A DNA stretch of 42,316 nt from a virus. The DNA lies in the IMG/VR virus record IMGVR_UViG_3300030329_005397, positions 1-42,316 of that record; one strand, written 5' to 3'. The notes beneath the pieces were generated by a model. The model was not told the DNA's origin. It made no database searches and saw only the letters and a list, made by a program, of their open reading frames with translations. Positions 4,805 through 31,300 of the stretch are shown piece by piece. The position numbers and the translations under genes are program-made. Position 1 is the stretch's first letter; every line of letters begins with the position of its first letter.

Positions 4805-4838
4805 CCCACCAACTTGTGTAGCAACTTGTGTATCAGTT
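4805..4838. promoter_or_regulatory. Arm-type integrase site pair, left of attP core
   Basis: Two copies of AACTTGTGTA start at 4811 and 4823 (12-bp spacing), preceded by CCCACC and followed by TCAG. The same block in the same orientation recurs at 5051-5081 on the other side of the core. Direct repeats flanking a tRNA-type core next to the integrase gene are the usual look of arm-type binding sites. The assignment is inferred from pattern and position. Confidence 0.6.
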
Positions 4839-5050: not shown

Positions 5051-5081
5051 CCCACCAATTTGTGTATCAATTTGTGTATCA
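5051..5081. promoter_or_regulatory. Arm-type integrase site pair, right of attP core
   Basis: Two copies of AATTTGTGTA start at 5057 and 5069, with the same 12-bp spacing, the same CCCACC prefix and TCAG suffix as the block at 4805-4838. The block lies between the attP core and the integrase start. Integrase binding here could also repress its own promoter. Confidence 0.6.
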
Positions 5082-5172
5082 GATGGGTTTGACAAGCGGG
5101 GGTGGTTCAACACTCTTTTGATGCAGATTGCGACGACCCGCATCACCCAATTAACTCAACTCGAAATCTCCA

Positions 5173-6787: not shown

Positions 6788-6832
6788 GTGTGCACGCGGG
6801 CTCGCGAAGCCCCTGTGCGTAAGCCCGGGACG

Positions 6833-7488
6833 CGCCTCGCCCGGGCAGGTACACGCCTCGCCCGGGCAGGTACACGCCTCGCCCGGACGGGTACACGCCT
6901 CGCCTGGGCAGGTACACGCCTCGCCTGGACGGGTACACGCCTCGCCTGGGCAGGGACGCGCCTCGCCTGGACGGGTACACGCCTCGCCCGGACAGGTACA
7001 CGCCTCGCCTGGACGGGTGCGCGCCTCGCCCGGACGGGTACACGCCTCGCCGGGGCAGGGACGCGCCTCGCCTGGGCGGGACTGCGCGGGGCTGCGTACC
7101 CGGGACGCGCCTCGCCCGGACAGGGACGGGCAGGGCTGCGGGCAGGTAGTGCGTGCATTATGCGCCGGGACGTGCCTCGCCTGGACAGGGGCACGCCTCG
7201 CCCGGACGGGATCACGCAGGGCGGCGGGCAGGGATGCGCCTCGCCTGGACAGGTACGCGCCTCGCCGGGGCGGGTACACGCCTCGCCTGGGTAGGTACGC
7301 GCCTCGCCTGGACAGGGGCACGCCTCGCCCGGACAGGTACACGCCTCGCCTGGACAGGGGCACGCCTCGCCCGGACGGGTACACGCCTCGCCTGGGCAGG
7401 GACGCGCCTCGCCTGGGCTGGGACGCGCCTCGCCCGGACGGGTACACGCCTCGCCGGGGCAGGGACGCGCCTCGCCCGGGCAGGTACA
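6833..7488. repeat. 21-bp tandem repeat array, about 27 units in two 12-unit blocks
   Basis: Units contain the invariant core CGCCTCGCC, followed by a variable YGGRCRGGKACA-like half. Read by eye, unit starts fall every 21 bases from 6833 to 7064 (12 units) and again from 7237 to 7468 (12 units). Single or paired units near 7107, 7172 and 7193 lie in a degenerate middle. GCAGGGCTGCGG-like segments mark the edges at about 7130 and 7490. The array fills the gap between the convergent integrase and portal-operon ends. All frames are open on both strands because 21 is a multiple of three and the unit has no stop, so the long open frames here are not evidence of genes. I saw no spacers, so it is not a CRISPR. 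Confidence 0.95.
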
Positions 7489-13685: not shown

Positions 13686-13816
13686 ATTGGGGTCCTTTGT
13701 TTGTTGTCGTTAGAATTAGTGCCGCCGCCGGAGAACGGAGTGGAATGATGACTGATGGGTCGCTTTTCAACCGGCGACGGCAAAGGGTTCATAAAAGTGA
13801 TATTGGTCAAAGGCAT
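13682..13816 (-). CDS. Small protein between primase and the 136-aa gene, 44 aa
   Basis: ATG 13816 overlaps the TGA of the primase-helicase (TGATG) and its own TGA overlaps the next ATG (ATGA). It therefore exactly fills what would otherwise be a 130-base gap. The product begins MPLTNITFMNPLPSPVEKRP and is short, polar and Gly/Asn rich near the end, probably unstructured. It may be a peptide partner of the primase, or mainly serve translational coupling. No function can be stated. Confidence 0.5.
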   Translation of the reverse strand: MPLTNITFMNPLPSPVEKRPISHHSTPFSGGGTNSNDNKQRTPI

Positions 13817-15696
13817 CAGTCTTCCTCGGTTGGTACATATACCCTGGGCGTCGCCAGGCGGTTCTCTTTGTATTGCCAGGAGCCGTCTTCCTTGCCGAAA
13901 AACAGACGCTTCATAGGCTCGTCGCCGTCGCCTCCGCGTTGAGCCAGAACGATGAACATGGCGTCGTGTAGCTCCTTCACTTTCCGAAGGTCCGAATCCG
14001 GGGCTCCTTTTGTATGCAAAGACTCCAGGTCGAGTTCCTTCTGCTTGTTTCTAAATACGCAAATAACGTTGTGCGAAAGGTCGGTTATATGAACCGAGCC
14101 CCGGACGTCGTGCTTCGACGGCCAGTATTTAGCCTCCGGTCGTTTTTCGCTGGGCTTCTTGGAGTGGGCCACCAGGTGGACGTGAACGTCGTGCTCGGCG
14201 GCGAAGTCGCACAAGGCGTTTAAGAATTCCTTTTGGCCCTGGTTGTCTTCCTCGTGAACGCTGCATCGCATCAGCGAGTCGATCACGAAGTGGGTTACGC
14301 CGTATTTTCTGGCGGCGTAGGCGAAGACCTCCAGGATCTCGGCCCCGGACGCGGTGCCTACTTTGTCATATACCCAAAAATAGCCGCTCATCCAGGTAAG
14401 GGCTCGCCGGAAATCGTCCTCGTCGTCCGGCTTGGATTTGCCCATAGCCATCCTCATCATATTTTGGACATTCTTTTCCGGTTTCATTTCAAGCGAACAA
14501 ATGCAGGATTTGCGGCCCAAGCCGGCCAGGTGAACCAGGACGTAGTTGAGCAGGACCGTTTTGCCGTGCTTGGAATACCCGGTCCAGGTGCTGACCTCGC
14601 CGGCCCGGAAGCGGAAAGGTAGGGTCCAGGGCGGAGCATCGCCGGGCTCCTCTCCGCCAGGCGGGTAAAAACATTCCCAAACTCGAAGGTCGAAGTCGGC
14701 CACGTTCTTCAGCTCGGCCGGATCCATGTCCCTGGCCGCCTGGTAGGGACCCTCGAAGAACTCGGAGCCGTCGGCTCCGGACTGAGCCCATTCGTTGACG
14801 TCCTTGCAGCCGTCCGGCCACTCGATCATCTTGCACCGTTCCCGGCCCAGGCGCCTGGCGAGCGTGGCCTGGGATTTCACTCCCGCCTCGTCGATGTCGC
14901 CGGCTAAATAAATTGTCTTGAAGCATTGCAGCCAATCGTAGTCGTGCTGGAGCGGGTCGTCCTTGTCGCTCTTCAACGTTCCAAACGGAAGCGAGACGGC
15001 CGGGAACCCCCAGCCCGTAAGGGTGACCGCGTCGATCTCTCCCTCGGTGATAAACAGTTCCTCGCAGTCGGCCGGGATCGCCTGGATCCCGAAAAGCATC
15101 CTGGGCCCTCCGGCCGGCTCGACGCGGATTCCCTTTTTCTCGAACTCCAGCCACTTTACCAGGAGCAGCTCCCCGTCCGAGTCCACGAACGGCCAGGCTA
15201 TTTTCTTGCCGTCGGGAGACTGGCCGACGCCGTAAGCCGCCAGGGCCTCCGGCTCGAGCTTTCTGGTTTTCACCAGGTACTTGTAGGCCGGGCTCGCCGG
15301 GTCCAAAGGAAGCGGCTTCTCCGGGCGGGGTCCTTTTTTCGGATCCCTCCGAGGCAGCATCGTTTCCCTGACCGACTTCAATTTCGGAGCCAGGTCCGCT
15401 ATACCCAGCAAACGCTTGGCCTCCTCGAACGCGGTCCGAAAGTCGCAATTCCTGGTAGCCATCCAAAGCCCCAGAAGGTCGCCTTTTTGACTCGGGTCGG
15501 CGTGGTCGATCCACAGCCCTTGATTGGGGCCCTGGAGCGAGACCCGGAGGGAGGTTGTTTTTTTGCCGGTTTTGCTTCGACCGGTAACGTTCGGGGCCGC
15601 CCATTCCCCTTTGATTCTCTCGCCCTCGGGCAAAAGGTGGCGACAAACCTCCTCCGCTCGACTCGCGAGCGCTTCGCTTACTTGCCTCCCGTCCAT
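13816..15696 (-). CDS. Primase-helicase (Toprim plus RecA-like DnaB-family helicase), 626 aa
   Basis: This is the replicative enzyme of the phage. The N-terminal part (1-110) corresponds to a primase N-domain but lacks a visible four-Cys zinc finger. The Toprim domain is marked by FITEGEID (Glu218) and LAGDIDEAG (Asp267, Asp269). The helicase domain has Walker A GYSKHGKT (373-380), SLEM (401-404), Walker B HFVIDS (Asp473), motif H3 HVHLVAHSKK (505-514), and DVRGSVHITDLSHNVICV near 530-547. The layout is that of T7 gp4 or Twinkle-like proteins. It follows the iteron-bearing initiator gene with 3 bases between the genes, so loader or initiator and helicase are made together. Confidence 0.9.
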   Translation of the reverse strand: MDGRQVSEALASRAEEVCRHLLPEGERIKGEWAAPNVTGRSKTGKKTTSLRVSLQGPNQGLWIDHADPSQKGDLLGLWMATRNCDFRTAFEEAKRLLGIADLAPKLKSVRETMLPRRDPKKGPRPEKPLPLDPASPAYKYLVKTRKLEPEALAAYGVGQSPDGKKIAWPFVDSDGELLLVKWLEFEKKGIRVEPAGGPRMLFGIQAIPADCEELFITEGEIDAVTLTGWGFPAVSLPFGTLKSDKDDPLQHDYDWLQCFKTIYLAGDIDEAGVKSQATLARRLGRERCKMIEWPDGCKDVNEWAQSGADGSEFFEGPYQAARDMDPAELKNVADFDLRVWECFYPPGGEEPGDAPPWTLPFRFRAGEVSTWTGYSKHGKTVLLNYVLVHLAGLGRKSCICSLEMKPEKNVQNMMRMAMGKSKPDDEDDFRRALTWMSGYFWVYDKVGTASGAEILEVFAYAARKYGVTHFVIDSLMRCSVHEEDNQGQKEFLNALCDFAAEHDVHVHLVAHSKKPSEKRPEAKYWPSKHDVRGSVHITDLSHNVICVFRNKQKELDLESLHTKGAPDSDLRKVKELHDAMFIVLAQRGGDGDEPMKRLFFGKEDGSWQYKENRLATPRVYVPTEED

Positions 15697-15699
15697 GCC

Positions 15700-16290
15700 T
15701 CATTCCTTCCACATATGATAAGGCCGGGTAATGTGAGGACTTACGTCCGCCCATTCATCGTCTTCTTTGGCCGGGGGGGGCTTTTTTTTCGGGAAAACCC
15801 CAGCCCATCCGCTCACCGTCGACTCACCCAAGGCGTCCAGTACCTGCTGCAAGTCGTACTTCTCGAACTGCTCCGCGAATACCTCGGCCGTCCCGGCGGA
15901 AACCGGGGGGGGATTTGTTTTCGGCTCGGATCTCATTTCAACAAATCTTTTCCAGGCGAGCTCGAACTCCGGGCAGTTGAATTCCGGCTTGTTGGAAAAA
16001 AGAGAAGAGAAAGAAGAAAGAAATAAATCCCCCTGGGGGGATACTAGGGGGGTTCTTACTGTATTTTTTTCTCTTTGTCTCCCGTGTGCGCGAGGTTTGG
16101 GCCCTGTTTGGGCCCTGTTTGGGCCTTGTTTGGGCCCTGTTTGGGCCCTGTTTGGGCCCTGTTTGGGCCCTGTTTGGGCCTTGAGTAGCGAGGCAATGTA
16201 AGCCGATTTTGTCATTGCTGAAGCTGAAGCTGATTTTTCAAGGTCTTCGGCTAAAGCAACGGGGAGGGTTACTTTGATTATTTTTTTCAT
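15700..16290 (-). CDS. Replication initiator-like protein: N-terminal ribbon-helix-helix, repeat linker, DnaT/O-like C-domain, 196 aa
   Basis: Residues 1-38 (IIKVTLPVALAEDLEKSA then MTKSAYIASLLK) form a CopG-type ribbon-helix-helix DNA-binding domain. Residues 38-66 are an 11-residue repeat (AQTGPKQGPNR) encoded by the iterons. After a linker, residues 104-167 (CPEFELAWKRFVEMR ... VLDALGESTVSGWAGVFP) match the C-terminal 'WxxW ... GWxGLFP' region of phage replication and helicase-loader proteins. DNA-binding head, iteron-coding linker and helicase-recruiting tail mirror the lambda O arrangement. ATG 16290 gives an ATGA overlap with the excisionase-like gene. Homopolymers near 15771-15790 (C8 and A8 in the coding strand) are potential slip sites. 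Confidence 0.7.
   Translation of the reverse strand: MKKIIKVTLPVALAEDLEKSASASAMTKSAYIASLLKAQTGPKQGPNRAQTGPKQGPNRAQTGPKPRAHGRQREKNTVRTPLVSPQGDLFLSSFSSLFSNKPEFNCPEFELAWKRFVEMRSEPKTNPPPVSAGTAEVFAEQFEKYDLQQVLDALGESTVSGWAGVFPKKKPPPAKEDDEWADVSPHITRPYHMWKE
15995..16183. other. ori: Candidate replication origin: eight 11-bp iterons plus purine/AT-rich tract inside the initiator gene
   Basis: Eight tandem units TTTGGGCCCTG (two read TTTGGGCCTTG) run from 16096 to 16183. Each full unit holds the palindrome GGGCCC. On one side is a T-rich stretch (16060-16078), a near-palindrome of C and G runs (16027-16042) and a 34-base purine tract (15995-16028) that should melt or unwind easily. Iterons next to an easily melted tract inside the initiator gene is the plan of the lambda origin. 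The function is inferred from this layout. Confidence 0.6.
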
Positions 16291-16511
16291 GCCGTCACCT
16301 CCGACCTTTCCTGGAGCCGCAGGACGGCCGCCTCCGGTATCCGCAGAGTGGCTTTGCTGCCATTGAGATAGAAGTAGGGCCAGAGGCCGCTACGGCCTTT
16401 TGATTCGTCCGCGTCCCGCATGTAGCGGTAGACGGTCTTTGGGTTGACGCTCAATATCTCGGCCACCTCTTTGACGGTGAGTAGTTTTTGGGGGGTCTTT
16501 CTTGCAGGCAT
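16287..16511 (-). CDS. Excisionase-like/MerR-type helix-turn-helix protein, 74 aa
   Basis: ATG 16511 (MPARKTPQKLLTVKEVAEIL) shares its A with the TAA of the upstream gene. The longer open frame to 16697 is a shadow of that gene. LTVKEVAEILSVNPKTVYRY followed by MRDADESKGR and a basic wing is the HTH_17/AlpA-type fold found in excisionases and small phage regulators. It is far from attP (about 11 kb) and adjacent to the initiator. It could be the directionality factor, a repressor, or an origin-binding helper. The fold is well supported; the role is not. Confidence 0.75.
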   Translation of the reverse strand: MPARKTPQKLLTVKEVAEILSVNPKTVYRYMRDADESKGRSGLWPYFYLNGSKATLRIPEAAVLRLQERSEVTA

Positions 16512-17138
16512 TAGAATCTTCCTCGGTATCGTGGGAGTTTGCAGGCCAGGCTCCACAGAGTCTCGCCGGGGTTTTTTTTCGCGGGAACCAACATTCCCTT
16601 TGTGAAATTCTTCGTCTCGCGGACTACCAGGGTGGCCATCTCGGCCGGCTTGTAATGGCGTAGCTCGGCCGGCTTGTAGTCCTCGGCGGCGATGCACCCC
16701 AGGAGCCGGGGATTGGTCCAGAAACGGACGACGATCAAATCCTTGTATTCAACCTCGGGAACGTCCTCCTGGTCGATCTGGAAGACTCCCAGGAGCTTGA
16801 TCACCCCATCGGCCGTCAGAAGGACTTTCTTGCCCTTCTTGATCCACCCATCGCCTTCCTGGAGATATTGCCTCCTGGCGAGCCTTACGCGGCCCCTGGT
16901 GAGGCCCAGGCGTTTGGCCAGGTCCGCCTCAAGTTCCCCTTTGTCTAAAATTTTGTCTGGGCGGATGTATCCTCCCCGGCTACCCGCATCGATTTTCTTC
17001 GACCCCCCCCCCCCCCGGTCGGCCGTCTGGATCCCTGGGACCCGGCACCTCGAGGCCCTCGGGTCCACCAGGTTGTGTACCCTTTTGTGTAGCAGGATAA
17101 GACAAATCGTCTGTTTTATGCCGAATTGAACCCTTCAA
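16511..17138 (-). CDS. DNA-binding (winged-helix-like) control protein broken by a frameshift at a G14 tract
   Basis: Downstream of the tract the frame encodes a clear protein: YIRPDKILDKGELEADLAKR then LGLTRGRVRLARRQYLQEG, a winged-HTH-like start. Upstream of the tract that frame looks like non-coding shadow and lacks an ATG (only GTG 17068). The neighbouring frame, in contrast, reads MKGSIRHKTDDLSYPATQKG with normal codon use from TTG 17138, which overlaps the upstream TGA as TTGA. The two frames join if the run holds 13 or 16 G instead of 14. The coordinates given are for the whole reconstructed gene of about 208 residues. A sequencing slip, a phase-variable switch or slippage during expression are all possible. 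Confidence 0.6.
17003..17016. repeat. 14-base C/G homopolymer within a control gene
   Basis: There are 14 consecutive C on the plus strand (G on the coding strand). It is the longest homopolymer noticed in the window. It lies exactly where the coding potential changes frame. Confidence 0.9.
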
Positions 17139-17824
17139 CCTCTTGGTACTCCATCCTTGTCCGCCGGTTCAGCGGCCTCCGGCCCTGGTTGCGACGGCGG
17201 AGCCAGGGCCGGCCCGGGCGACGGGCCGGCCAGGCCCTTTTGTTCCTTCTTTTCTCCCTCTATTTTCATTCCCTCGCCTCCAACGGCTCGGACCCGGCGA
17301 AGGCTCGCCAGGTAGGCATCGAAATCCTCATTACTTGGCTCGGCCGGAGAGTGGGCCACCCGGCTGGTAGCTCCACCACTCAACAGCTCGCTCTTCTCGG
17401 TCAGTATGCCCACGATGACCGCCTTCTGGTTGGCCGGGATCTTCCTCGCCTGCTCGTCGTCCAGGAGGTCTTCGACGATTCGCTCGCCGGCCAGCCTGGC
17501 TCCTCTCCGGTAAAGGTTCGCCAACCTTCCTTTTTCTATATCTACAGCCTCACCCTCCCGGTCCCGGACGGCCATGACCGTGTTCGGGCTGACCTTCAGC
17601 AGCTTGCCGATCCGGATCATGCCCAAACCTTCGGCCAGGCAGTAGACAATGGTTTGATAGACTTGCGGTTTTTGCTCGAAAAGACGATCCCCCGTGTACT
17701 CGCCGCGACGCTCCGCGGCGGCCAGGAACTCGGCCGGGATGCCGGGCAGATCCAACTGCTCGACCTCCGCCTCGGCGGGCTCTGCAAGAAGCAGGCTGTC
17801 CTTCGATTTTTGCGTCAAAATCAA
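17135..17824 (-). CDS. Helix-turn-helix DNA-binding protein, 229 aa
   Basis: Residues about 50-85 (VYQTIVYCLAEGLGMIRIGK then LLKVSPNTVMAVRDREG) form a resolvase/transposase-like HTH. They are followed by a helical region (AGERIVEDLLDDEQARKIPA, NQKAVIVGILTEKSELLSGG) and a Pro/Gly/Glu-rich disordered tail of about 50 residues. The pattern resembles phage helix-turn-helix proteins that carry a small-terminase-like or replication-control head. It sits second in the control operon, coupled by ATGA to the ribbon-helix-helix gene and by TTGA to the G-tract gene. A role in early control or replication is most likely. A small terminase is an alternative, although it is 4.3 kb from TerL. Confidence 0.65.
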   Translation of the reverse strand: MILTQKSKDSLLLAEPAEAEVEQLDLPGIPAEFLAAAERRGEYTGDRLFEQKPQVYQTIVYCLAEGLGMIRIGKLLKVSPNTVMAVRDREGEAVDIEKGRLANLYRRGARLAGERIVEDLLDDEQARKIPANQKAVIVGILTEKSELLSGGATSRVAHSPAEPSNEDFDAYLASLRRVRAVGGEGMKIEGEKKEQKGLAGPSPGPALAPPSQPGPEAAEPADKDGVPRG

Positions 17825-18018
17825 GCCCCTCTGCGATCCTGCTGTTCATCTCTTTTCAATGCCTGCTTCAAGTCGGGATGATCCTGGAGAAGAGATCGAA
17901 GGGTCGAGCTTAACGAGCTGCTTCGGCGAAAGGCCAGGCGGCGAACGAAATCCATTTCCCGGTCAGTCAATTGAACCATGCAACGATGGCGCCGGAGAGG
18001 TTGTAGGGTTGTTGTCAT
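17821..18018 (-). CDS. Small ribbon-helix-helix regulator, first gene of the replication-packaging operon, 65 aa
   Basis: MVQLTDREMDFVRRLAF then RRSSSLSSTLRSLLQDHPDL has the strand-helix-helix pattern of Arc/CopG-type regulators. The ATG at 18018 gives 65 residues; Met14 is an alternative start that trims a basic N-terminus. It faces the plus-strand regulator across an operator region rich in TGCAACA repeats, and is ATGA-coupled to the next gene. By position it could be a Cro-like antagonist of the divergent regulator. That role is inferred. Confidence 0.65.
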   Translation of the reverse strand: MTTTLQPLRRHRCMVQLTDREMDFVRRLAFRRSSSLSSTLRSLLQDHPDLKQALKRDEQQDRRGA

Positions 18019-18026
18019 CCATAACG

Positions 18027-18133
18027 AAGTGCAACAATCTGCAACACTCTGTCAAATTAAAGTTATTAACAAGGGAATTTGACACAAATTGTTGCACTTG
18101 ACACCTGAAGAACTCAATACATATGTATGCACC
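18027..18133. promoter_or_regulatory. Divergent promoter/operator region of the putative lysogeny switch
   Basis: A perfect 11-bp inverted repeat, AAGTGCAACAA (18027-18037) and TTGTTGCACTT (18089-18099), encloses an inner pair, GTCAAATT (18051-18058) and AATTTGAC (18076-18083). TGCAACA occurs at 18030 and again at 18040, one helical turn apart, with an inverted copy at 18090. TTGACA boxes lie at 18079-18084 and 18098-18103 on the plus strand. The latter is followed after 18 bases by TATGTA (18122-18127), which would start transcription close to ATG 18134. On the minus strand TTTAAT (18061-18056) is a possible -10. The repeats suit binding by one or both flanking ribbon-helix-helix proteins. 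Confidence 0.65.
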
Positions 18134-18382
18134 ATGTCACCTAAAGATAAAGAGGAAGTTCGAGTAGCTTTCCAGCTCCCAGCCCATATCGTCCAGGATA
18201 TAGATAAACTAGCGGCCTCGCTGCACCAAACCCGGTCGCAAATGTATCGTTGGATCACCGTGTCCTTCCTCGAGTCGGTGTGCGACAAAGAAGAACCCCC
18301 ATCAATTCCAATGCTACTGGAGCTTGCCCGGACGGTTAAAGGCCCGAAAGAGTCGACCCCGTTCTCTCCCGTAAGGAACTAA
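18134..18382 (+). CDS. Ribbon-helix-helix transcription regulator, 82 aa
   Basis: The core VRVAFQLPAHIVQDIDKLAA then SLHQTRSQMYRWITVSFLES is a textbook CopG/MetJ-like pattern: a strand with alternating polar residues, then two helices. ATG 18134 (MSPKDKEEVRV) is chosen over TTG 18089, which would place the operator repeats inside the gene. No good Shine-Dalgarno is seen before 18134. The best promoter starts transcription at about that base, so the message may be leaderless, as for lambda cI from PRM. It is the only regulator reading away from the replication operon, so it is the best candidate for the lysogeny repressor. Confidence 0.7.
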   Translation: MSPKDKEEVRVAFQLPAHIVQDIDKLAASLHQTRSQMYRWITVSFLESVCDKEEPPSIPMLLELARTVKGPKESTPFSPVRN

Positions 18383-19045: not shown

Positions 19046-19336
19046 TCAGTACATGCCGCCGGGGCGGTACAGGACGACCGGGCTTTCCAGGTGCCCCAGC
19101 GAATTCAGGACGTTGAAGTCCAAATGCTCGAGCGCGCGCTCCTGGTCGCCGAATTCCTTGGTCGCGACCTCCACCAGCTTGTCCCAGTCGTAGCAGGCCA
19201 CCGGACCGAAGTCTATCTTCTCGACGTAGCCGACCAGGGCCTCGTCCCAAAAGTCCTCCTCGAGCACCAGGCAGCTCTCGCAGGCCGCGTCGATGAATTC
19301 ACGCTGGGGCGAAAGCTCCGCCGGCAAACCGCTCAT
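19046..19336 (-). CDS. Hypothetical protein, 96 aa, after the giant gene
   Basis: This acidic soluble protein starts MSGLPAELSPQREFIDAACE. It contains two Cys close together (CESC), an aromatic/acidic middle (EEDFWDEALVGYVEKIDFGP) and ends PVVLYRPGGMY. Its ATG shares the A of the giant gene's TGA (TGATG). It ends 3 bases from the stop of the convergent membrane-protein gene, so no room is left for a separate terminator. It is the last gene of the virion operon. No family is recognised. A small partner or chaperone of the giant protein is possible from the tight coupling, but this is not shown. Confidence 0.65.
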   Translation of the reverse strand: MSGLPAELSPQREFIDAACESCLVLEEDFWDEALVGYVEKIDFGPVACYDWDKLVEVATKEFGDQERALEHLDFNVLNSLGHLESPVVLYRPGGMY

Positions 19337-22300
19337 CAGTCTATCTTTATGGGTTTAAATGGCTTCCTCGGTGGCTCGGGCGGCTTGAGCCTCTCGAAAT
19401 CCTCCTGGAGCATGGGCGGGCCCGCCGGGATCTTATCGCCTTCACTCGGTTCCCACCGTGAATCCGGAATTGACCACTTCCATTTCTTCCTGTGCTCCTC
19501 CGACTCCACGTCCTCGGCCGTGACCTCTGTCTTTCTCGATTCGACGAAGGCGGCCCTGTTCTTGCGGTACGCCTTGGCGAAGGCTTCGACTTCAAGGGTA
19601 ATGGCGTTGTCGCCGGGTCGCTGCAGCAAGGTGTAGAGACGGGCTTCGGCTTTAGCCGCCGCTCCCTCTCTCATCGACTCGACGATAGCCTTGACTATGT
19701 CGGTCTTGCCCTCTTCCGAGAGTTCCTCAAGCTCGGACATGCGGGCTTCCAAATCGGACCGGAATTCCTGGCCCATGTACCGGCTGTAAAGATAATGGGC
19801 CTCCTCCATCGCCCGCTGCCCCTTCTCCTCCAGGATGTCGTGGAAGATCTCCTTGTCCCTCGACGGCGGCTTCGGTATCATCCGGTGATTGACCAGGAAG
19901 TCCATCAGCGGGTCCGGGTCGCCGCTGGCTTTTCTCAAACGGTCGAAAAACCGCTCCGAAAAAGTGCCTTCCATTTTCATGGCCGGCTCACCCCAAACGT
20001 TCAGCCTCGGGTATTTCTCGCCCAGGTAACCGTAGTTTATTACGTTGATCCAGGCGCCGTTGAGTTCGTTCGGGGTGTAAGCCGTGGAGTCGAACAACTG
20101 CGCAGTCTGGCTGACCGCGGACGGGATGGCGAAAGACGCGGCCGTGCGCTTGCTCAATTTATCGAAAGCCCGCCCAGATTGATCGTCGAATTTGAAAACC
20201 TTTATGAGATCCCCCACGCCACTCAAAAAAGTCTGGTCGAAAAGCGTCGAGCCCGCGGCCAGGAACCCGGCCGCCAGGCGATCGTTCAGCTCCTGCTCGT
20301 CCATGTCGCCGTATTTCCGCTGGTCCGCGTAGCCGCCCAGCGCGGCCAACGGAATGGCCAGGGGCGACTCGCCGTAGTTCCATCGGCCCCAGGGCGTCTT
20401 GATGGTCCAAGGCTCCCAGTCGGTCGTGTCCTTCAAGGTCTGGGCGTCGTCGAAATTGTCCGGGCCTTTCCCGGTGATGCTCCACAGCGGGTCGTCGTCG
20501 TCCTCGTATTGCGAAAACAACCATTGCAAAGTGACTATCGTCGCCGTCCCGATCATGTTGCGGGCGAGCATGTCGTTGAGCTGCTCCTCCGACTTGGTCG
20601 GCTTGCCCGCGGAGTCGGTTTCGGGAAGGTATTTCTGCGACGCCCAGCGTAGGGTTCCCAGCCCGGGCGTCAGCTCGATCGCGGTGTTGGCGACGTTGGC
20701 GACGACGTTAACGAACGGAACGAAAACCTTTCCGACTTTACTGCCGACCCATTGTGTCGGCCCCATCTTTTCGCCAGGCGCCAGCGGCGGGTTGACCATG
20801 TGGTTGAAACTGTTTGCAAGCAAGCCGATCAAGCCGTCGGGCTTTTGCTGGAAAACCGCATTCAAGGCGAAGTCCATAGCGTCCTTTTGCAGCTCCGGAT
20901 TGCGAGCCATCTCCGTAAGCTCGGCCACCCGCCGCTTGTATGCGTCGCCTTCCAGGCCCTCGGCCGCCGCCTGGTCCTGCGCCTGCTGTTGGTGCTTGCC
21001 GTCGAGGGCCAGGATCTCCTTCACCCGGGCTTTCAATTCCTTGCCCTTCAAACCCTGCTTCTTGGCCAGTTGAACGGCCAGGAACCGCGCTTTCATTTCC
21101 ATGTTGGTATACCTGAACATGGCGTCCATCGCGGCCAGCGGCCGAGTGGAAAGCATTTTGAGAGCGCGCAAAGGATAGAGAAGGCCCGTGGGTTTCCACC
21201 TATCCAGCAAACTGTCCGCATGGTACTTGCTCTGCTCCGGACCCTTGCGGCCGCGGCCCGTCCAGTAAGTATGCCAGGCTTCCCGGCCGCCGACGCCGAA
21301 ACCGCGGGCCATGCCGGCCAACAGATGCAACATGCCAGTAGGCGATCCCTTGCTCCTCACCGCCTGGGTGACGAAGCCCAGCATCACCATTTGGATATTA
21401 GAGAACACGTTGATTTGGTGCGTCCGGAAACCGGACAACATGTTCGCGTACCGGATCGCGAACATCACGTCGACCGGGTTGTCTCCCACCTTGTTCGCGA
21501 TCTCGTTCAGCAGGTCGACCGTCGCGTTGTCCTTGGGGCTGCCTTCACCCGCTTCCTGGACCCGGTCCGCCAGGGTGCCGATCAATTTCAACCAGGCCGG
21601 GTCGTAGCTGGTCGGAAGCCCCAGCCCCTTGGCTATTTGATTATAGACGTCCTCTCGGTCGAAGGCTCCCAGGTTGGCCATCTCCAAAAGCTTTTGCTCC
21701 TGCGTCTTGATAGCCCGCTGCACCTTCTTGCTCGACCGCCCGGCGATCTGATCTAGCTGACGCTTGGCTTCGGTTTTCAACAGTCCGCGGTAGCTGTCCT
21801 CGATCCGCTTGGCCAATTGCCCGGCCGAGTTCGGGTCCAGCCCCAGGCGGGCGACCAGGCGGTCCCGCAGCTTGGCTCCGGTGGCATTCTGTAAACTGTA
21901 ATGTTCGCGGACCAGGCTATCCAGTTGCTTTTCCATATCGACCAGCTCTTCGCTGATCGCGCCGACAAGCACTTTCCCGGAAGCCTCGTCGAATTGTATC
22001 GCGCCGTAAACCTCGGCGATCGCCCGCAGCTTCTCCGGGTTGTCCTTGTACTCCTCCGCGATCGCCTCGCCGACTTCTCCCCAGGTCTCCAGATATTCGT
22101 CCGGACGAGAAAGCAAATCCTCGAGGACTTCGCGGTCCGTTGGCGGCGGCGTTCCCGGCGCCCGCGCCGGAGCCTCGACGCCCGCGTCCTCGAGCTTGCC
22201 CTTCGCGTGCTTCACCAGGCGGTCGGTGAATGCATTCAAAACCTTTCCTCGAACCTCCGGATGGTCCTTGAATCCAGCCCTCACCATCTGCATGATTCGG

Positions 22301-25300
22301 GCCACCGCTTCCGGGGATTTCGCCCGGCCGTAAACGCGGCCCTCGCCTCGACGATTCCGCATCACCCGCGTCAAGGTGTCCACTCCGGGCCGCTCCTTGG
22401 CCACGCCCGCCGAGGCAGCCTGTTGAGCCGACTGCATGACCGAGGCCACCGAGTCAGCCGCGTCGGTCGCTCCCGCCCGTCGAAGGCTGGCTCCCTGGGC
22501 CTTCGCCACCTGGCGCTTGGCGAGCCGTTGAAGGGAGTGGGGATCCAGGTAACTGAACGCCGAAAATATCTGCACCGCACGCCCGTAGCTCTGGCTCAAT
22601 TCGGACAAGCGGTCGGCCAGCTCGGCCGCCTTGTCCGCTCGCTCGTTGACCAGGTCCAGACGGCCCAGCGATTTAGCCAGGACGACGTTGGCCGACGCCC
22701 GCCTCACCAAAATCTGGCCCAGCATGGCGCGGACCTCCGGGGTCATGTCCGCCCCGCTCCGGAAACGAGCCTCCGGGTCCTCCCCGTGGAAAATCGTCAT
22801 GGCCTCGGCCAGGGTCTGCTCGTTGGCCCGGATCTCGTAGGTCGTCTTGACCTTGTCCTTGACCTCGTCCGGGATGGTGGCGTCCTCCAGCACCCGCACG
22901 GGGAAACTGCCTGTGCCCAGGATCGGCTCGCGGTCCGTGCCGCCTGGCAGCCGCGACTGGCTGAATTTCAGCGAGTAATCCGGCGGAGACTCGAAATCTA
23001 CTGGGGCTTCCGCACGCTCGGCGGCGGGCCCATGTAAGGCCCCGCCGGGAAGGTCCTCGACGGTTCCTCGGAGGTAGCTGGAGACTTCGACTTGGTCCCA
23101 CTTTTCGTAAACCTTTCGGATACGCGGCTCGAGCCGACTGTCCAGCCTTCGGAGAACATCGGATCGTCCGAGCTCGCGAAGCCTTCGTCGATATACTTCC
23201 CCCTGCCCATTTTCTCTCCAGTCGTTTCCTTCATAAATACTTTCCTTGGCGAATTTCTTGACGTTTACATTAATCTCCGGGCCTTCCAAGTCCAGCACGC
23301 TTTTTGCTATGACGCTCCGGATTTTCTGGAACTCCAGGTTGTCCAGCGCGTCCGCCCCGGTCGCCCCTTCCTTCTCGGTCATAAAGTTCATCAACCGAAA
23401 CCCGTCGTGCGTGAGATAGTAGCCGATATCCTTGTGACGCCCGGTATCTCCGAAATGTTTTTCCAGGGCCGCGTGGACCGCCCGCACCTCGGTCATGTTC
23501 GGCTGCCGCGTCTCGCCGCTCTCCTTGTCGGTTATGACGAAGTCGATGCCATCCGCGTCGGCCAGCTTGCCGGCGAAAAACGGACGGTAGCCGGCCCCCG
23601 AGTCCTGGCGGTAATACAAGGCGTGCAAAAGAACGTACGCTTCCGCGTACTCCCTGGACTGGTCCTGCATGGTGAGCGAGCCCTCGCCGCCCTTCGCCGT
23701 AGTCGTCGCCAGGCCCACCTGGGCCGCCGGGGTGATCTCGAGCTGCCCGTGGGCCGTGTTTATCCAGATGGACGGGCCGACCGCCGCTCCTTCCGCGGCT
23801 CCCTGGAGCGGCAACATGCCGAGCTCCTCGGCGATGATGTCGTTGCCCGTATCCGGGTCGTGGAGGCTCTCCAACATGTCCGCGAAAAAACGGTGCTTCA
23901 ACTCATAAGGCATGTCGTGCACGTGAGGCAGCACGTTCGTCGTGCTCCCGGGCTGCATCTCCATCGAATGGAAAAACAGGCGGCGCTCCATCGCGTCGGA
24001 AAAATCGAACTTGTCGGTCGGTCGAAAGGCTCCCTCGGTCCCTTCCAGCTTCAACTCCTTGTTGAGCCGCCGCTGAAACATCGTCCGGTAGAACTTCTCG
24101 AACTCTGGATTTGCCTTGTCCGTGCCGCCTCCGATCATCTCGCCGAGCTCCGTCGCGTCGCCCGCGTCCACGTCCCGCTGCTTGGCCGGACGAGGTTGCG
24201 TCAACGCCCGCAAGGGAATGCCTTTCTTTTCCGCCGCCTCCAGGACCTCCTTCTTCATCGAGCCCCACAACCCCTGGGCGTAGGTCCAGACCGCCGCCTG
24301 CACCTGCCAGGGCTCCCAGCCCATTTGGTCCCCGATCTCCCGGTGTGTCCTTAAAATGTAGTCGTAGGCGTTGTCCGACAAGGTGTCCGACGGGTATCCG
24401 TAGGCCCTCGCGATCCACATGTCCGCGGTGACCCCCTGGGCCCTCGCCGGATCGATGACAACCATCAAATTCTGGTAGAAATTATTCGTCTTGCGACCCT
24501 CCCAGCCGACGTCGCCCCACAAGGCGTCCGCCGCGTCGAGTTGGCCCCGGCCGTCCTTTATCATGTGTATGAACTTGCCGCTCTCGTCCTTCGCCAGGAA
24601 TTCCTCCTGGGTCATGCCGCTTTTCCACATGTTGTAAGCCTTCAAGGCGTAGTCCCAATTCGTCTGCACCCTATTCTGAGGAGAGAACACGCCGATCAAC
24701 TGGGCCAGCTTGTCGGCGTCGTTCACGTCGCCCGCCACCAGGTCCATGATCGCCCGCGAACTGTGCTCGTACCACATCCGGCCGACCTCGCCGCGTTCCG
24801 CCATTCCCTGGAGCCGCGAAATCAACTGGGTCCGCAGCCTCGGCGTATTGAACCGCGTCGGAGCTCCGACCACTCGGCCTTTGATCTCCTTTACCTCGCC
24901 GCCCTGGACGTCGACCAGCTTGTCCGCCTTGTCCTTCGCCAGTTGCTTTTCCCTGCCGCTGGCTCCGGCCCCCTCGCCGGGCACGCCTTCCTCACTTTTC
25001 TTCGAGAACAAAGGCATGTTCATCGTGGCCGCCGCCGCCTCCGGCGTGAGGTCGAAATAGTGGACGCCGAGCTCCGTCGCGTCCTCCTGTTCCTCGAATG
25101 GGTCTTGGAGTAAATTCATTTCGGGTTCCTCGTAGACGAGGATCCCGCGGGTCACCTTCTGGCCACTTTTCTTGATCAAGGCGTTGGTCCGGTTGCGCAG
25201 GTCCCGGTCGTAGAATTGCAAGTTCGCATGGCCGCCGAGCTGTATGGCATCGACCCCCAGATCTTCCGCGGTCAATGAGTGGTAAGGCTCGTCGCCAATA

Positions 25301-28300
25301 GGGACAAATTTTGACTTGTCCGCGAGGGCCGCCTGCATTCGCTTGAAGACTGCATCGCCTACCTTTTTTCGCGCCTCTGATTCCGTAAGCTTCTCACCGA
25401 CCTTCTTGGAAACCACGTCTTGCTTGCTCAACACTACCCACATGGGGGCCTTGGTCTGTGTCTCTCCTGGCGGTAGCGGCGGGCCTTCCTGTATCGCTTG
25501 AAAATATATTTCCTCCGAGAGCCTCCCCTTGTTGTATCGCTCGTTTTGTTCGGCGCCGTCCAGCCAGGCCACCCGCTCGAAGCCCTCCCTCTTCGCCATC
25601 ACGATCGCTTGCTTCATCGCCAGGGCGTGCCAGGTCTTCTTGAAGGGAGCGTCCGGCACAAGGACGACGACGTTTTCCTGACCTGTCCCGGTCTGCACGG
25701 TCGGAGTTTTTCGTCCATACCCGAAATCGAAGGGCGTCTCCTTCTCCAGTCGCGCTACGTGCTTGTCGTGGTTGTTCCTTACGAATTCACGTCGGTTTAG
25801 TCTCCATGTCATCATTTCAGCCGTATTTTCCTCAAGGCCGCCAGGCGCCGGGTTGGCCGCTTCGAATTCCGCCTGGACGGCCTTCTGGGCCTCTGCGTAT
25901 ATATGCCGCCGCCGGACTTGCTGGGCCGCCTTGTGCCAGTCGCTCTGGATCTCCTGAATGAGGAGGGTCCGCTTGCCGTCCATCATTCTTTCGTCGACGC
26001 GGAGGTGAAAGAGGACGTTCCGATCGGGGAAATGGTCGGTATGGAAAGACAAATGCTTCTGGGCTGACCCGCGTGGGCTGCCCGTATTCGGGTCGACGTC
26101 CAGGTGGTTGCCACGAGCGTCCAAGGGAATGGGGGGCCCGTAAAAGTTGCTGTGGTCCCTGGCCTGTTCGATCCGCCAGTCGTTGGCTTCTTCTTTGGTC
26201 GCGAATTCCTTGTCGGGTAAGTTGTTGCCTACCCGGTCTGCATTCGACACTAGCCAGCCGTCGATCGTCGGTTTAAGATCGTAAGTGACGAGAATTTCCC
26301 GGTAGTTCGTGCCGCCCGGCTCGGTCACGTTGTAATTGGAGTCCGTGCCGTACAAGGGTGTAGGGTCATCTCCTCTCGCCGAATTGCCCCGCTCATTGAC
26401 CCTGAACCTGGGAGAAATTTGCAGCACCAGGTCCTGGACCTGGCTCTTGTCAAGGGTGCCCTCGGGCAACTTGTCGGCCAGGCCGATGGCGTCGGCGTAG
26501 GCGGCCGCCCCGGAAGTATTCTTTATTTTGGCCTGGAGCTGCTCCTTGCTGAACCGGGCCGGCATGTCGACCAGGACGCCGTCGATCAAATTGTCCTTCA
26601 GCCCCAGGTGCTCGAGCACCAGCTTCTCGAGCGGACCGTCCTCGGCCACGACGAGCTCGCCTTCGGCGGCCTCTTTCTTGCTGAACATAGGCACGCCGTC
26701 CTCCGCTTTTTCGGGCAACAGAATCGCGCGGACCTTCGGGTCGCGCAGGTCCACGCTCCAGCCTTCGACGTAGTCCACTTCGGCGGTCGCAGCTTGTCCC
26801 GGCGGCGGGGGAAGATCGCTCTTCCAATGCTTGCGGCGGCCGCCGCTGAATTTCTCGAGCTTAACCTTGACGCCCGCCTTCTTTAAAATCTTCTCCACGT
26901 ACCGGCGCATTTCGCCGTCGTAAAAGTTGATGTTCCTCTCGCCGCCGATCCGGATCCGCTCGCCGTTTCCGAAACCCTCCGCAGTCAAGATGACTCTGTC
27001 GGCGTCAGCCCCGAGATCCTTACGGTCTTGCGCCGTCAAAGTGTCGGATCCAAACAAGCCCAGCACGCTGGCCTCCTCGGAAACGGACTGCTTGTGCCAT
27101 GCTCGTATAATCTCTCTGCCCTTGGCCGCGTCGCCGTCGCCCAGGGATTTGACGAATTTATTCTGATGAGCCTCGTTCACATCCACCGAGATGGCGGTAG
27201 GCTCTCTTCTAACAAGACGCCCGTCTCGATCGCGATCATACGCGACATAAGCAAGGTTGAACACGCCGTCGTAGGCGTCGGATTCCATGACTCTCAGAGC
27301 CACCACGTCGCCCGTAATGCCCTTGTTGTAGCGCCGGTTCTGAATATCCCCGGTCGTCCAGGCGAACTTTTCATGGCCCGCCAGGATGGCCCGTCTCATC
27401 TCCAGGCGCAGGGCCTTCTCTACCCAGTTCTTGTCCATGAATGGGTGCACCTTCTCGAAGGCTTGGCTGATTGTCCAGTCCTTCAGCGAGGCAACTTGCT
27501 CTCTCGCGAAAGCCTCGGGGTCGGCTCGCTGTCTGGCCATCTCGGCCGGCCCAAGCTCACTCGCTTTTCCCTGCGGCCAGTAAACCTTCTCCACGCCGGA
27601 CATTCGTCTGCCGCTTTTCGCACCTTCGTCCTTGAAGTAAAGCGAAACCGCGCCGGCCTTGGTCTCGTCGCTGCCTTCTCGCACTACCCAGAAAAATCCC
27701 TTGAAGTCCTTGTCCGGGGTGGAGAAGGGCTCATCCCCTTTGTGATAAACGGTCGGCGCGTCGCGAAGGGCCGCCCGATCGCTTGGAATAAGCACGTGCA
27801 AGTTCTCGTCGCGCAGCTTCTTCGCCTCGTCGCTCTGGAACTCTTCGCCGTAATACGTCCGGGCGTCGTCCTCGAGGCTGGTCCTGGTGTTCGATCGGGT
27901 ATGGAAAAGCACGCCGTCCATGTCCGCGTTGGTATCGTCGAAGTGCCACCCATACCAAGCTCCGTCCGGATCGTAGTATAGCGTTTCCTGGTAATTCAAG
28001 CCGCCTGGCTCCGTTATTCGGTGGTACTGGTAGCCCGCCTCGTTGGCCGCCCTGGTCGGGTTGATCGCGTAAGGCGCCTCGTCCTCGAGGTCCGCCACGC
28101 GGCCAAGCATTTCGTCGCTTAAAATGTCGAGCTCCTGCCCCCAGCCCTCTTCCTCGCCCTGCTTCCTGGCCATCGCCTCGAGGTCGACTTCCGCCTTGGC
28201 CTCCACGCTCATGCCGTGAAATTCGCCGACTCCCTCATCGAATCGATTCTGCAAAGTCTGCACCCGGGCCTCGATCGCCTGGGCGACCTTCAGTTCGTGC

Positions 28301-31300
28301 GCCCCGACAATCTTTTCCACCTCGGCCGCCACCCAGTCGCGGTTCAGCGCGGCCACTTCCTCCTTCACCTCGGCGTAAACATAACCGTCGGAGGTCGCCT
28401 CCAGAATATCGCCGTTGACGTGGTCGACTATCTCCCAGGAGTTGATCAGGCCGCTCACTTGGTCGAGGACCCTGGGCTGTATAATCCGAGACTTCGCGTA
28501 GACCCATTGATGGATCTCCTCGATCGTCGCGGGACCCTCGTCTCGCTGGTCCCAGAATTCATCGAGGTCGACCCAGTTCGCCTGGGCCTGGGCCCCGGCC
28601 ATTCCGGGAGCGCTCAAGGCTTTCTCGAATTGCTGCCTGGTGAATTTTTTCTGGCCGCGGGCCTCCATCATGGGAAGCACCCGGTCCAGGATGTTGTCCC
28701 TCATGCCGCCTCGCTCGATCGCGAGGGCCTCCCGCTGCTCCAGGCGTACGTCGGTGGCGTCCCAGTCCTCCGCCCGCTTCTTGGAGTACTGGACCGCCTC
28801 CACTCGGGTAACCATGAAGTATGGATGCCCCTGGAAGCTCTTCATCTCGCCGGGCTTCAACCCGGCCAGCGTCAGCAGCCGATGATATTGCCTGGTCTTG
28901 GCCGGGTCCATCGACGAAATGGCCACCCGGCCTTTATCGTTCGCCCATCCCTGGACGGCGTCGACGAAGTTGCTCATCATGTCCCGGAAATTCATGTCCG
29001 TTTGCAGCACCGCGGTCCAGTCGGTCCGGCCGAGCTGGTCCTCCTCCCGGGCCGCCGACAAACCATTCCGCTGCACCGCCACCTGGTAGCGGAGGTCGTC
29101 CGGGTAAAGCTCCTCCTTGCCGTGAGTCAGGTAAATTTCATACTCGCCGTTTGGCACGCTCTCGATCCGCTCCAAACCGTGGGCCGCCAGGCGACGCCCG
29201 TCCTCCGCCAGAGTGTCGCCCCGCGACTTGGAAAATTGCGGGCCGGAGACTTCTTCAACCGCCGGAGCCTCCGGGTCGGCTGCCGGATCTACCGGGGGCA
29301 ACGGGTCGGCGGTCTCTACCGGTCCGACCGCCGGCGGTCGTTCCCCTGGGTCCCTGGTGGAATCCGCCCTGGCTTCTTTCACGTGTTGTTCATTGAGCCG
29401 GATGACCTCGGCGGCAATCGATCTGGCGAGCCCGGTCCTGGGGTGCTGTGATGCGAGATGCAGAGCCTGGAGGACCTGGGCGTCGGTCAGTTTGTCCCGC
29501 ATCGTCTCCGGGCTTTTGCGTAGAATCGTTTTCTTCACCCAATCCACCAGGCGACGCCGCTTGATGGGCGTGAGCATGGAAGGGTCTTCGGCAAGCTGGG
29601 CCACGAATTCCTTGGCCAGCATGATTTGCCCGGCGGGCGAGACGCTTTCCAGGCGCTCGGTCGCCGTCGCCTCCGGGCCGTCTTGTTGCTGGTCCCATGC
29701 CTGGAGGTCGTTTGCGTCCAGGTATTCATTGGCGAGTGTGTTCAGTTTTTCGGCATTGGCCGGGTCCGCCAGGATCTGACTGACGACCCGGGCGTAAAAT
29801 CTGTTTTGCGTTTTCTTTTCTCCGAGCACGTTCTCGACTGAATCGTGGCCGATGACTTCGTGATCGAATACCTCGACGGCCCGCTCGGCCGAAGTGAGGT
29901 GGTTGGCGTGCAGGTAAACCTTGCCGTTGAACTGGACGCCTTCGACGCGCATCCCCGGCCCTCCCTCTGATTTCGGTTTTATGTTCTGGGCGATTCCCTT
30001 GGCGACCGTGAGAGCGTCGCCGAATTCACGCTGGGCCACGGCCATAGCCTCCACGGTTTCCGGAGAAGGGTCCTGCTCCATAGCTTGCTGGGCGGCCAGA
30101 AGGCGTTCCTGGGGGCCCTTCAGTATGCCGGCGGCGTCGTCGAATATGACGACGGTCGGAGCTCCGCCTTTCATTTCCGCAAGCCTGCTCTCGATGGCGG
30201 CCTCCACTTGGTCCACGGTGAGCCTCTCGCCTTTCGGGTTCTCGTCGGCCGGCATGGAATCCGCCCTGCTCTTGATGTAGCTTGCGGCGTCTTGGACTTC
30301 GTCCGCTTCCAGTTTGGCGATCAGCGCCTTCGTTCTTTCGTCGGCCGGCCGGTTGTCGATCTCTTGTCTGAACCGGGCTTCCGCGAGGGCCTGCTTGAAC
30401 CCTTCCTTTGGATTGGCCAGGGCTTCGTCGAGGTGCCTGAGAGTCTCCAGGCTTTCCTCGTCGCGAACAAGGACCGCGTTGCCTTCGGAGTCCACTTCGT
30501 CCAGGCGAGCGGCGTAATCGTCCCGGAGCACCTGAAGCTGCTTCTTGTAGTCAGCTTCATACTTTCTGTATTTGGCCGTGTCGGTCGCCTGGTAGATATT
30601 GATCCCGGCCTCGGCCGGGGCCGTGCCCAGCTCGGCGATGATTTCCTGGAAGATGGCCAGGCCGTCGGTGACCTTCCCGTCCAAATAGATTTGCTTCACG
30701 GCCTCGCCGCCGCCGCCGCCGATGCTTTGCACCAACGCCTCGGTCGATACCCTGGCCATCGCCGCGCTTTTGCGGTAGCCGGCCCGAGCAAACTGTTGGA
30801 TCGGCTCCCGAAACAACTTGCCGGCCACTCCCATCGTCGCGGCGTCGAAACCTCCCACGATCAAGCCCGCGGCCTCACCTTCGGTCCTGACCTGGGCGTA
30901 AATCTCGGGATTGTCCAGCATGTACTGGAAAAAACCCCTGACCCCTTCCTCCGAGGTTGGATCGAAACCATGCTCGATCATGGAGCTCACCATGTGCGCG
31001 CCGTATTCCATTTGGAAACTGGATCGCCCGGCCGCTCCGATCGCCCCCCAGGGGCCCGCGACCAGGGCGCCTATGGCGGTCGCCACTATGGAGTAACCCA
31101 TTTGCGGGGCGTTCTCGGCGGCGACCTGCCCGAGGATCTCGACCGGGTTGTTTACGAAAGTCCAAAAGCCAGGGTTGCTGATGAAGTCCTCGTAGCCTTG
31201 CGAATGATAACCTTGTAGGTGCTGAACGAGCGCCTGGTTTTCAGCCAGGACCTTGACGTTTTCCTGGATGCTCGCCTTCCAATCCTCCCGGCGCTTCCTC

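Follow-up and report, generated by a model that had tools for sequence, protein, structure and literature searches.

Among phage initiators whose own gene contains the origin, DNA-binding domains of the winged-helix type predominate, the iterons of lambda are longer than 11 bp, and ribbon-helix-helix (RHH) proteins are known as repressors, antitoxins, and partition (ParR) adaptors. In the O gene of lambda and the Stx phages, the origin lies inside the initiator gene, with iterons between the DNA-binding and helicase-recruiting parts of the protein and an AT-rich tract beside them (PMC7466680). The lambda iterons are inverted-repeat sites bound by O dimers, and at plasmid origins the helical phasing of iterons matters (PMC5043065). 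The initiator gp38 of SPP1 binds oriL repeats located inside gene 38 (PMC6316719). ParR of R1 binds 11-bp repeats, of which at least two are needed (PMC9426499), while the PrpA antitoxin of pMBL6842 is an RHH protein that binds the iterons of a plasmid origin (PMC7848731).

The DNA analyzed here, hereafter the window, is a stretch of 42,316 nucleotides from a virus (IMG/VR record IMGVR_UViG_3300030329_005397). We consider it probable that it holds an origin of the lambda plan inside its own initiator gene, in which the winged-helix domain was replaced by an RHH domain. The gene structure, the repeat, the easily melted tract, the neighboring gene, and the conservation of the RHH-like start and the repeat within a clade of related phages were read directly from the sequence; the window features concerned are the following:

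15700..16290, minus strand: initiator gene, 196 aa, with an RHH-like N-terminus, an iteron-coded linker and an O-like C-domain
16177..16290, minus strand: RHH/CopG-like N-terminal domain, residues 1-38, with sub-threshold matches
16096-16183, unstranded: iteron array, eight tandem 11-bp units, coding-strand unit CAGGGCCCAAA
16027-16042, unstranded: inverted repeat ATCCCCCCAGGGGGAT, between the iterons and the purine tract
15994..16029, unstranded: putative DNA-unwinding element, a 34-bp purine (coding-strand pyrimidine) tract
15905..15912, minus strand: C8 run (coding strand) between the linker and the C-domain of the initiator
15772..15960, minus strand: O-like C-domain, residues 111-173, from a phrog_678 match and alignment with O-like C-domains
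13816..15696, minus strand: primase/helicase, 626 aa, directly downstream of the initiator, with TOPRIM and DnaB-like ATPase
16287..16511, minus strand: small DNA-binding protein of the HTH_17 family, encoded immediately upstream of the initiator, with conserved counterparts in the relatives L181 and L185

The array occupies nt 108-195 of the 591-nt initiator gene, between the RHH-like and the O-like parts, and its first unit overlaps the 3' end of the RHH coding region. On the plus strand the unit reads TTTGGGCCYTG (CCCTG in 6/8 and CCTTG in 2/8 units), and the coding strand of the gene (16290..15700, minus) runs over the array as CAAGGCCCAAACAGGGCCCAAA... The eight units that the initial annotation had placed between the N- and C-terminal regions are confirmed. 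TRF returned a period of 11 with 97% matches, and the lag-11 self-match of the array was 70.5, whereas none of 1000 synonymous recodings of this protein exceeded 41. The iterons are direct repeats with a palindromic core of only 6 bp (GGGCCC), unlike the longer inverted repeats of lambdoid O iterons. No second iteron cluster was found in the 42-kb window, where single matches (≤ 2 mismatches) are scattered at chance level. The remark that every frame of the array is open is true but follows automatically from an 11-bp period: 11 shares no factor with 3, so each frame of a given strand runs through one and the same 33-bp cycle.

The purine-rich tract and the C/G palindrome reported near the array were likewise recovered, at 15994-16027 and 16027-16042, respectively. 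The former is the longest R/Y tract of the window, its 36-bp duplex stability lies 3.4 z units below the mean (top 0.024% of window positions), and it coincides with the 36 bp of lowest stability in the gene (nt 261-296), on the C-domain side of the array. A terminator reading of the palindrome was rejected, since the terminator-like pattern is equally frequent in shuffles. The GC-skew shift predicted at about 16.1 kb is absent from the window, along which cumulative skew falls almost steadily on the gene-dense strand. Two short 12-bp repeats at 4810-4832 and 5056-5081 (CAACTTGTGTAG, CAATTTGTGTAT) lie beside an AT-rich stretch near 5172 and may mark a regulatory region or another candidate origin.

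The initiator gene and the gene before it share an ATGA, in which start and stop codon overlap, and a strong ribosome site (GGAGGTGA) precedes the start. Its N-terminus looks RHH-like: Pfam RHH_5 matched with E = 0.023 and 14.9 bits against a curated cut-off of 26, and CopG residues 1-37 are weakly co-linear with it (E = 0.46, window sequence alone). The proposed RHH domain thus stands as a resemblance, all matches being below curated cut-offs. Searching the C-terminal region against phage replication profiles, as had been suggested, gave phrog_678 ("replication initiation O-like") over residues 111-173 (E = 3.4e-6, profile positions 226-287 of 346), with no match of this profile before residue 111; Phage_rep_O (PF04492) found no match in the protein in the Pfam search. 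The AF2 model of the whole protein, built from one sequence, was poor (pLDDT 49), and that of the C-domain was moderate (pLDDT 65.5) and had no match in a PDB fold search. Because a PDB profile search of the C-domain gave only weak and implausible matches, the "DnaT-like" half of its earlier label is unconfirmed and the O-like half is retained; its function is presumed to be helicase recruitment. The downstream gene matched phrog_239 (E = 7.5e-107) as well as Pfam AAA_25 and Toprim_2. With the initiator as query, the only close relative among viral contigs was in the near-identical contig L004, none was found in phages or plasmids, and eight bacterial or archaeal genomes with related modules gave no match. 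Two other small, possibly RHH-like proteins are encoded divergently at 17821-18018 (minus strand) and 18089-18382 (plus strand), around a very AT-rich gap at about 18054.

Relatives of the phage were recovered via the terminase (65-74% identity); between their primase/helicases and the one in the window, identity is 46-54%. In the primase/helicase tree the clade phages form one supported group of nine (100/99), of which three further members have truncated initiators. Five relatives carry a readable initiator start in the same place:

L181, 5742-6440: initiator with about 6 repeat units
L184, 609-1151: initiator with about 3 units
L185, 689-1213: initiator whose 11-bp repeat is not significant (P = 0.46, synonymous recoding)
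L189, 927-1478: initiator with about 4 units
L267, 1110-1652: initiator with about 3 units

These proteins begin with M[PS]RLS[IV]... and are short, like that of the window, so that an RHH-like N-terminus is present in 6/6 members of the clade in which the gene start can be seen. When these six N-termini were combined into a profile, RHH proteins were its first four PDB matches (CopG twice, MazE9, and NikR; best E = 0.04), hhalign of CopG against a four-sequence subset gave a probability of 45%, and no Pfam RHH family was found in the N-termini of the relatives when each was searched singly; the RHH identity of the clade N-termini is therefore suggestive rather than conclusive. In 5/6 initiators, the window with its roughly 8 units included, 11-bp repeats start at nt 108-122 and lie within nt 108-196 (P < 0.001 each, synonymous recoding). 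The peptides encoded by the repeats differ (QTGPKQGPNRA, QLGANWVPNGR, ALKQRENSAK, ALNQRGFGAD) while the 11-bp repeat persists, hence it is the DNA repeat and not the peptide that is kept. Relatives with a degenerate peptide linker and no DNA repeat, the case named as contrary to an origin, were looked for, and what was seen is peptide divergence with the repeat staying in these five. For L184 and L189, the stability minimum of the gene falls on the 5' side of the array. The type of C-domain varies within the clade, that of the window and L181 appearing alike and L184, L185, L189, and L267 having another. The nearest outgroup with a readable initiator, L205, is without an RHH-like N-terminus and has somewhat similar 11-bp repeats.

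These unit numbers (about 8, 6, 4, 3, and 3) contradict the proposal that copy number is locked to multiples of three, and in the relatives the frame is restored by indels flanking the array. Nor is this an odd constraint on an origin, as had been thought: the Stx phages have two iterons more than lambda and 13 extra O residues, so in-frame changes of iteron number were already known (PMC7466680). The idea that the coding frame fixes the number of iterons is corrected accordingly, the spacing following the DNA helix and the frame being mended by indels at the sides.

We surveyed the genes upstream of related primase/helicases in phage records, viral contigs, and bacterial genomes, obtaining 103 non-redundant initiators. 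A single primase/helicase query gave no match in the genomes, and the genome collection of primase/helicases worked with an alignment as query. In-gene repeats, defined as a 10-mer that occurs at least 4 times (≤ 1 mismatch) in a span of 260 bp, were present in 41/103 initiators vs. 0/2060 codon-shuffled genes, at a median position of 0.45 of the gene. Their spacings cluster at 10-12, 17, and 21-24 bp, i.e., about one or two helical turns, and in many cases three does not divide them. The 36-bp stability minimum of the whole gene fell ≤ 170 bp 3' (C-domain side) of the repeats in 25/37 clean cases (7.3 expected) and on the opposite side in 4/37; the window shares this polarity, its purine tract being 3' of the repeats on the coding strand. 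Repeats inside the gene with AT-rich DNA mostly on the C-domain side could thus offer a practical route to predicting phage origins from sequence. Pfam assigned the N-termini chiefly to HTH_36 (30), DnaD_N (18), DUF1376 (13), and Phage_rep_O (9), the non-RHH N-termini being mostly winged-helix types, and among the first 25 of the 56 families listed for the 103 initiators no RHH family occurred except the window's own RHH_5. On sequence grounds, the lambda plan is evidently common and inherited in this primase/helicase lineage, because 41/103 initiators have mid-gene repeats, usually with AT-rich DNA next to them and mostly with winged-helix N-termini. Tandem linker arrays of 11 bp also occur in the non-RHH initiators of L063 (3595-3643), L223 (5750-5809), and L233 (2221-2295), as does a 12-bp one in L129 (3474-3567), again without an RHH-like N-terminus; one-turn arrays are therefore not tied to RHH.

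The window shares with lambda and Stx the in-gene origin architecture, the mid-protein iterons, and the adjacent AT-rich tract (PMC7466680), and differs in its 11-bp direct repeats, in an RHH-like fold instead of Phage_rep_O, and in a fused primase/helicase instead of P. SPP1 oriL is alike in architecture, with direct repeats and an unwinding element and the repeats inside the initiator gene (PMC6316719), whereas it relies on a separate loader, gp39, and a DnaB-type helicase, gp40. The phrog_678/phrog_270-type initiators next to phrog_239 of Pseudomonas and Escherichia phages have the same gene order, a homologous primase/helicase, in some a homologous C-domain, and often in-gene iterons followed by AT-rich DNA; their N-termini, unlike that of the window, are mostly HTH_36, DnaD_N, DUF1376, or Phage_rep_O. 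R1 ParR/parC resembles the window in pairing an RHH protein with 11-bp direct repeats (binding being predicted for the window) but serves partition, not replication, with repeats outside the gene and a ParM motor. PrpA, also unlike the window protein, is not an initiator and represses replication by competing with RepB (PMC7848731). Since the C-domain and primase/helicase lineage already uses the lambda plan, mostly with winged-helix-type N-termini, the simplest reading appears to be that the plan was inherited and its DNA-binding fold replaced once. The initial annotation had seen a convergent lambda plan with a different fold; the plan and the different fold are supported, strict convergence is not. 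The novelty is the swapped DNA-binding fold with one-turn repeats, as the lambda plan itself is already known. If true, the DNA-binding fold of this plan can be swapped while the plan persists.

From these features we infer that the RHH domain binds the repeats and that the site melts, loads the helicase, and serves as an origin. RHH dimers would occupy neighboring 11-bp iterons, spaced by roughly one turn of the DNA, cooperatively and on one face of the helix; the resulting nucleoprotein array, in mid-gene, may exert torsion that melts the AT-rich polypurine tract beside it, and the primase/helicase encoded by the next gene would be recruited by the O-like C-domain. In favor of an RHH-bound origin we counted the RHH-like N-termini of the clade, the conserved repeats, the O-like C-domain, the phrog_239 neighbor, the survey, and the precedents; against it, the sub-threshold RHH matches, the poor AF2 model, the lack of a PDB match for the C-domain model, L185 without a significant repeat, the 5' position of the least stable DNA in L184 and L189, and the missing skew shift.

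The array could instead be an operator or a centromere-like site, at which the RHH protein represses its own operon or segregates the DNA in the manner of CopG or ParR, with the origin elsewhere. Such roles are typical of RHH proteins, R1 ParR binds 11-bp direct repeats (PMC9426499), and a protein bound to an array inside the operon could block transcription. We nevertheless regard this as unlikely, as the protein has an O-like initiator C-domain and adjoins the primase/helicase, no ParM/ParA-type motor gene was found among the scanned neighbors of the initiator, and 41 other initiators have repeats of the initiator type at the homologous site, mostly followed on the 3' side by AT-rich DNA. 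It is more doubtful still that the array is a coding minisatellite, a flexible linker recently expanded by slippage whose DNA repeat is functionless. The units are nearly identical, as after recent expansion, the sole internal variant is synonymous, and direct comparison is limited to one near-identical contig (L004); yet in four divergent relatives an 11-bp period that exceeds synonymous nulls recurs at this position, although their units have diverged and their peptides are unlike, and selection for a repeated peptide cannot produce an 11-bp periodicity of the DNA that runs through all three frames.

An origin to which some other protein binds, for example a host factor or the HTH protein encoded upstream, with the RHH domain only dimerizing or binding elsewhere, has a slim chance of being correct. 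The 11-bp repeats of L205 mean that the repeat could be read by another protein, and an HTH gene adjoins the initiator; in the RHH clade, however, every significant repeat begins where the RHH coding region ends, as would fit an RHH domain and repeat inherited as one unit.

Homopolymer runs are concentrated around the locus: 6/12 of the window's G/C runs of at least 6 fall within 15.70-17.07 kb (binomial P = 9e-7), five of C and one of G on the coding strand, the latter a G14 run in the gene two upstream of the initiator. The C8 run of the initiator has C6-C8 counterparts in the same place in L181 (6087), L184 (891), L185 (962), L187 (99), L189 (1201), and L267 (1390), kept even in GC-poor relatives where CCC makes up 2-14% of the proline codons. 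Contig L004 has C7 where the window has C8, and its C-domain is out of frame; one-base slippage at the run would remove the C-domain, the frame that L004 displays. Close to its start, the gene two upstream carries G12-G17 on the coding strand, conserved between the window (17003-17016) and divergent relatives (L181 5041-5057, L189 251-263, L267 459-470); this run looks like a contingency (phase-variation) tract, and L004 begins at this run (L004 1-14). The runs may be switches, DNA elements, or assembly effects. A scheme in which the initiator of this marine clade builds a ParR-like filament on in-gene one-turn iterons, with the C6-C8 (and G12-G17) runs as a frame switch, is speculative and improbable; if the switch were real, a one-base slip would yield an RHH-only protein that binds the origin without recruiting the helicase, so that some of the population would stop replicating. 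Additional runs of C6-C8, many of them preceded by an A-run (AAAAAGCCCCCCC), occur in several replication genes, at 15773-15780 and 16490-16495 of the window and in the relatives (L181 5542 and 6785; L184 1497; L267 2001). Elsewhere in the window, about 31 copies of a 21-bp repeat with a 63-bp higher order lie at 6826-7488, and one gene of 4329 aa (19336-32325) takes up 31% of its length.
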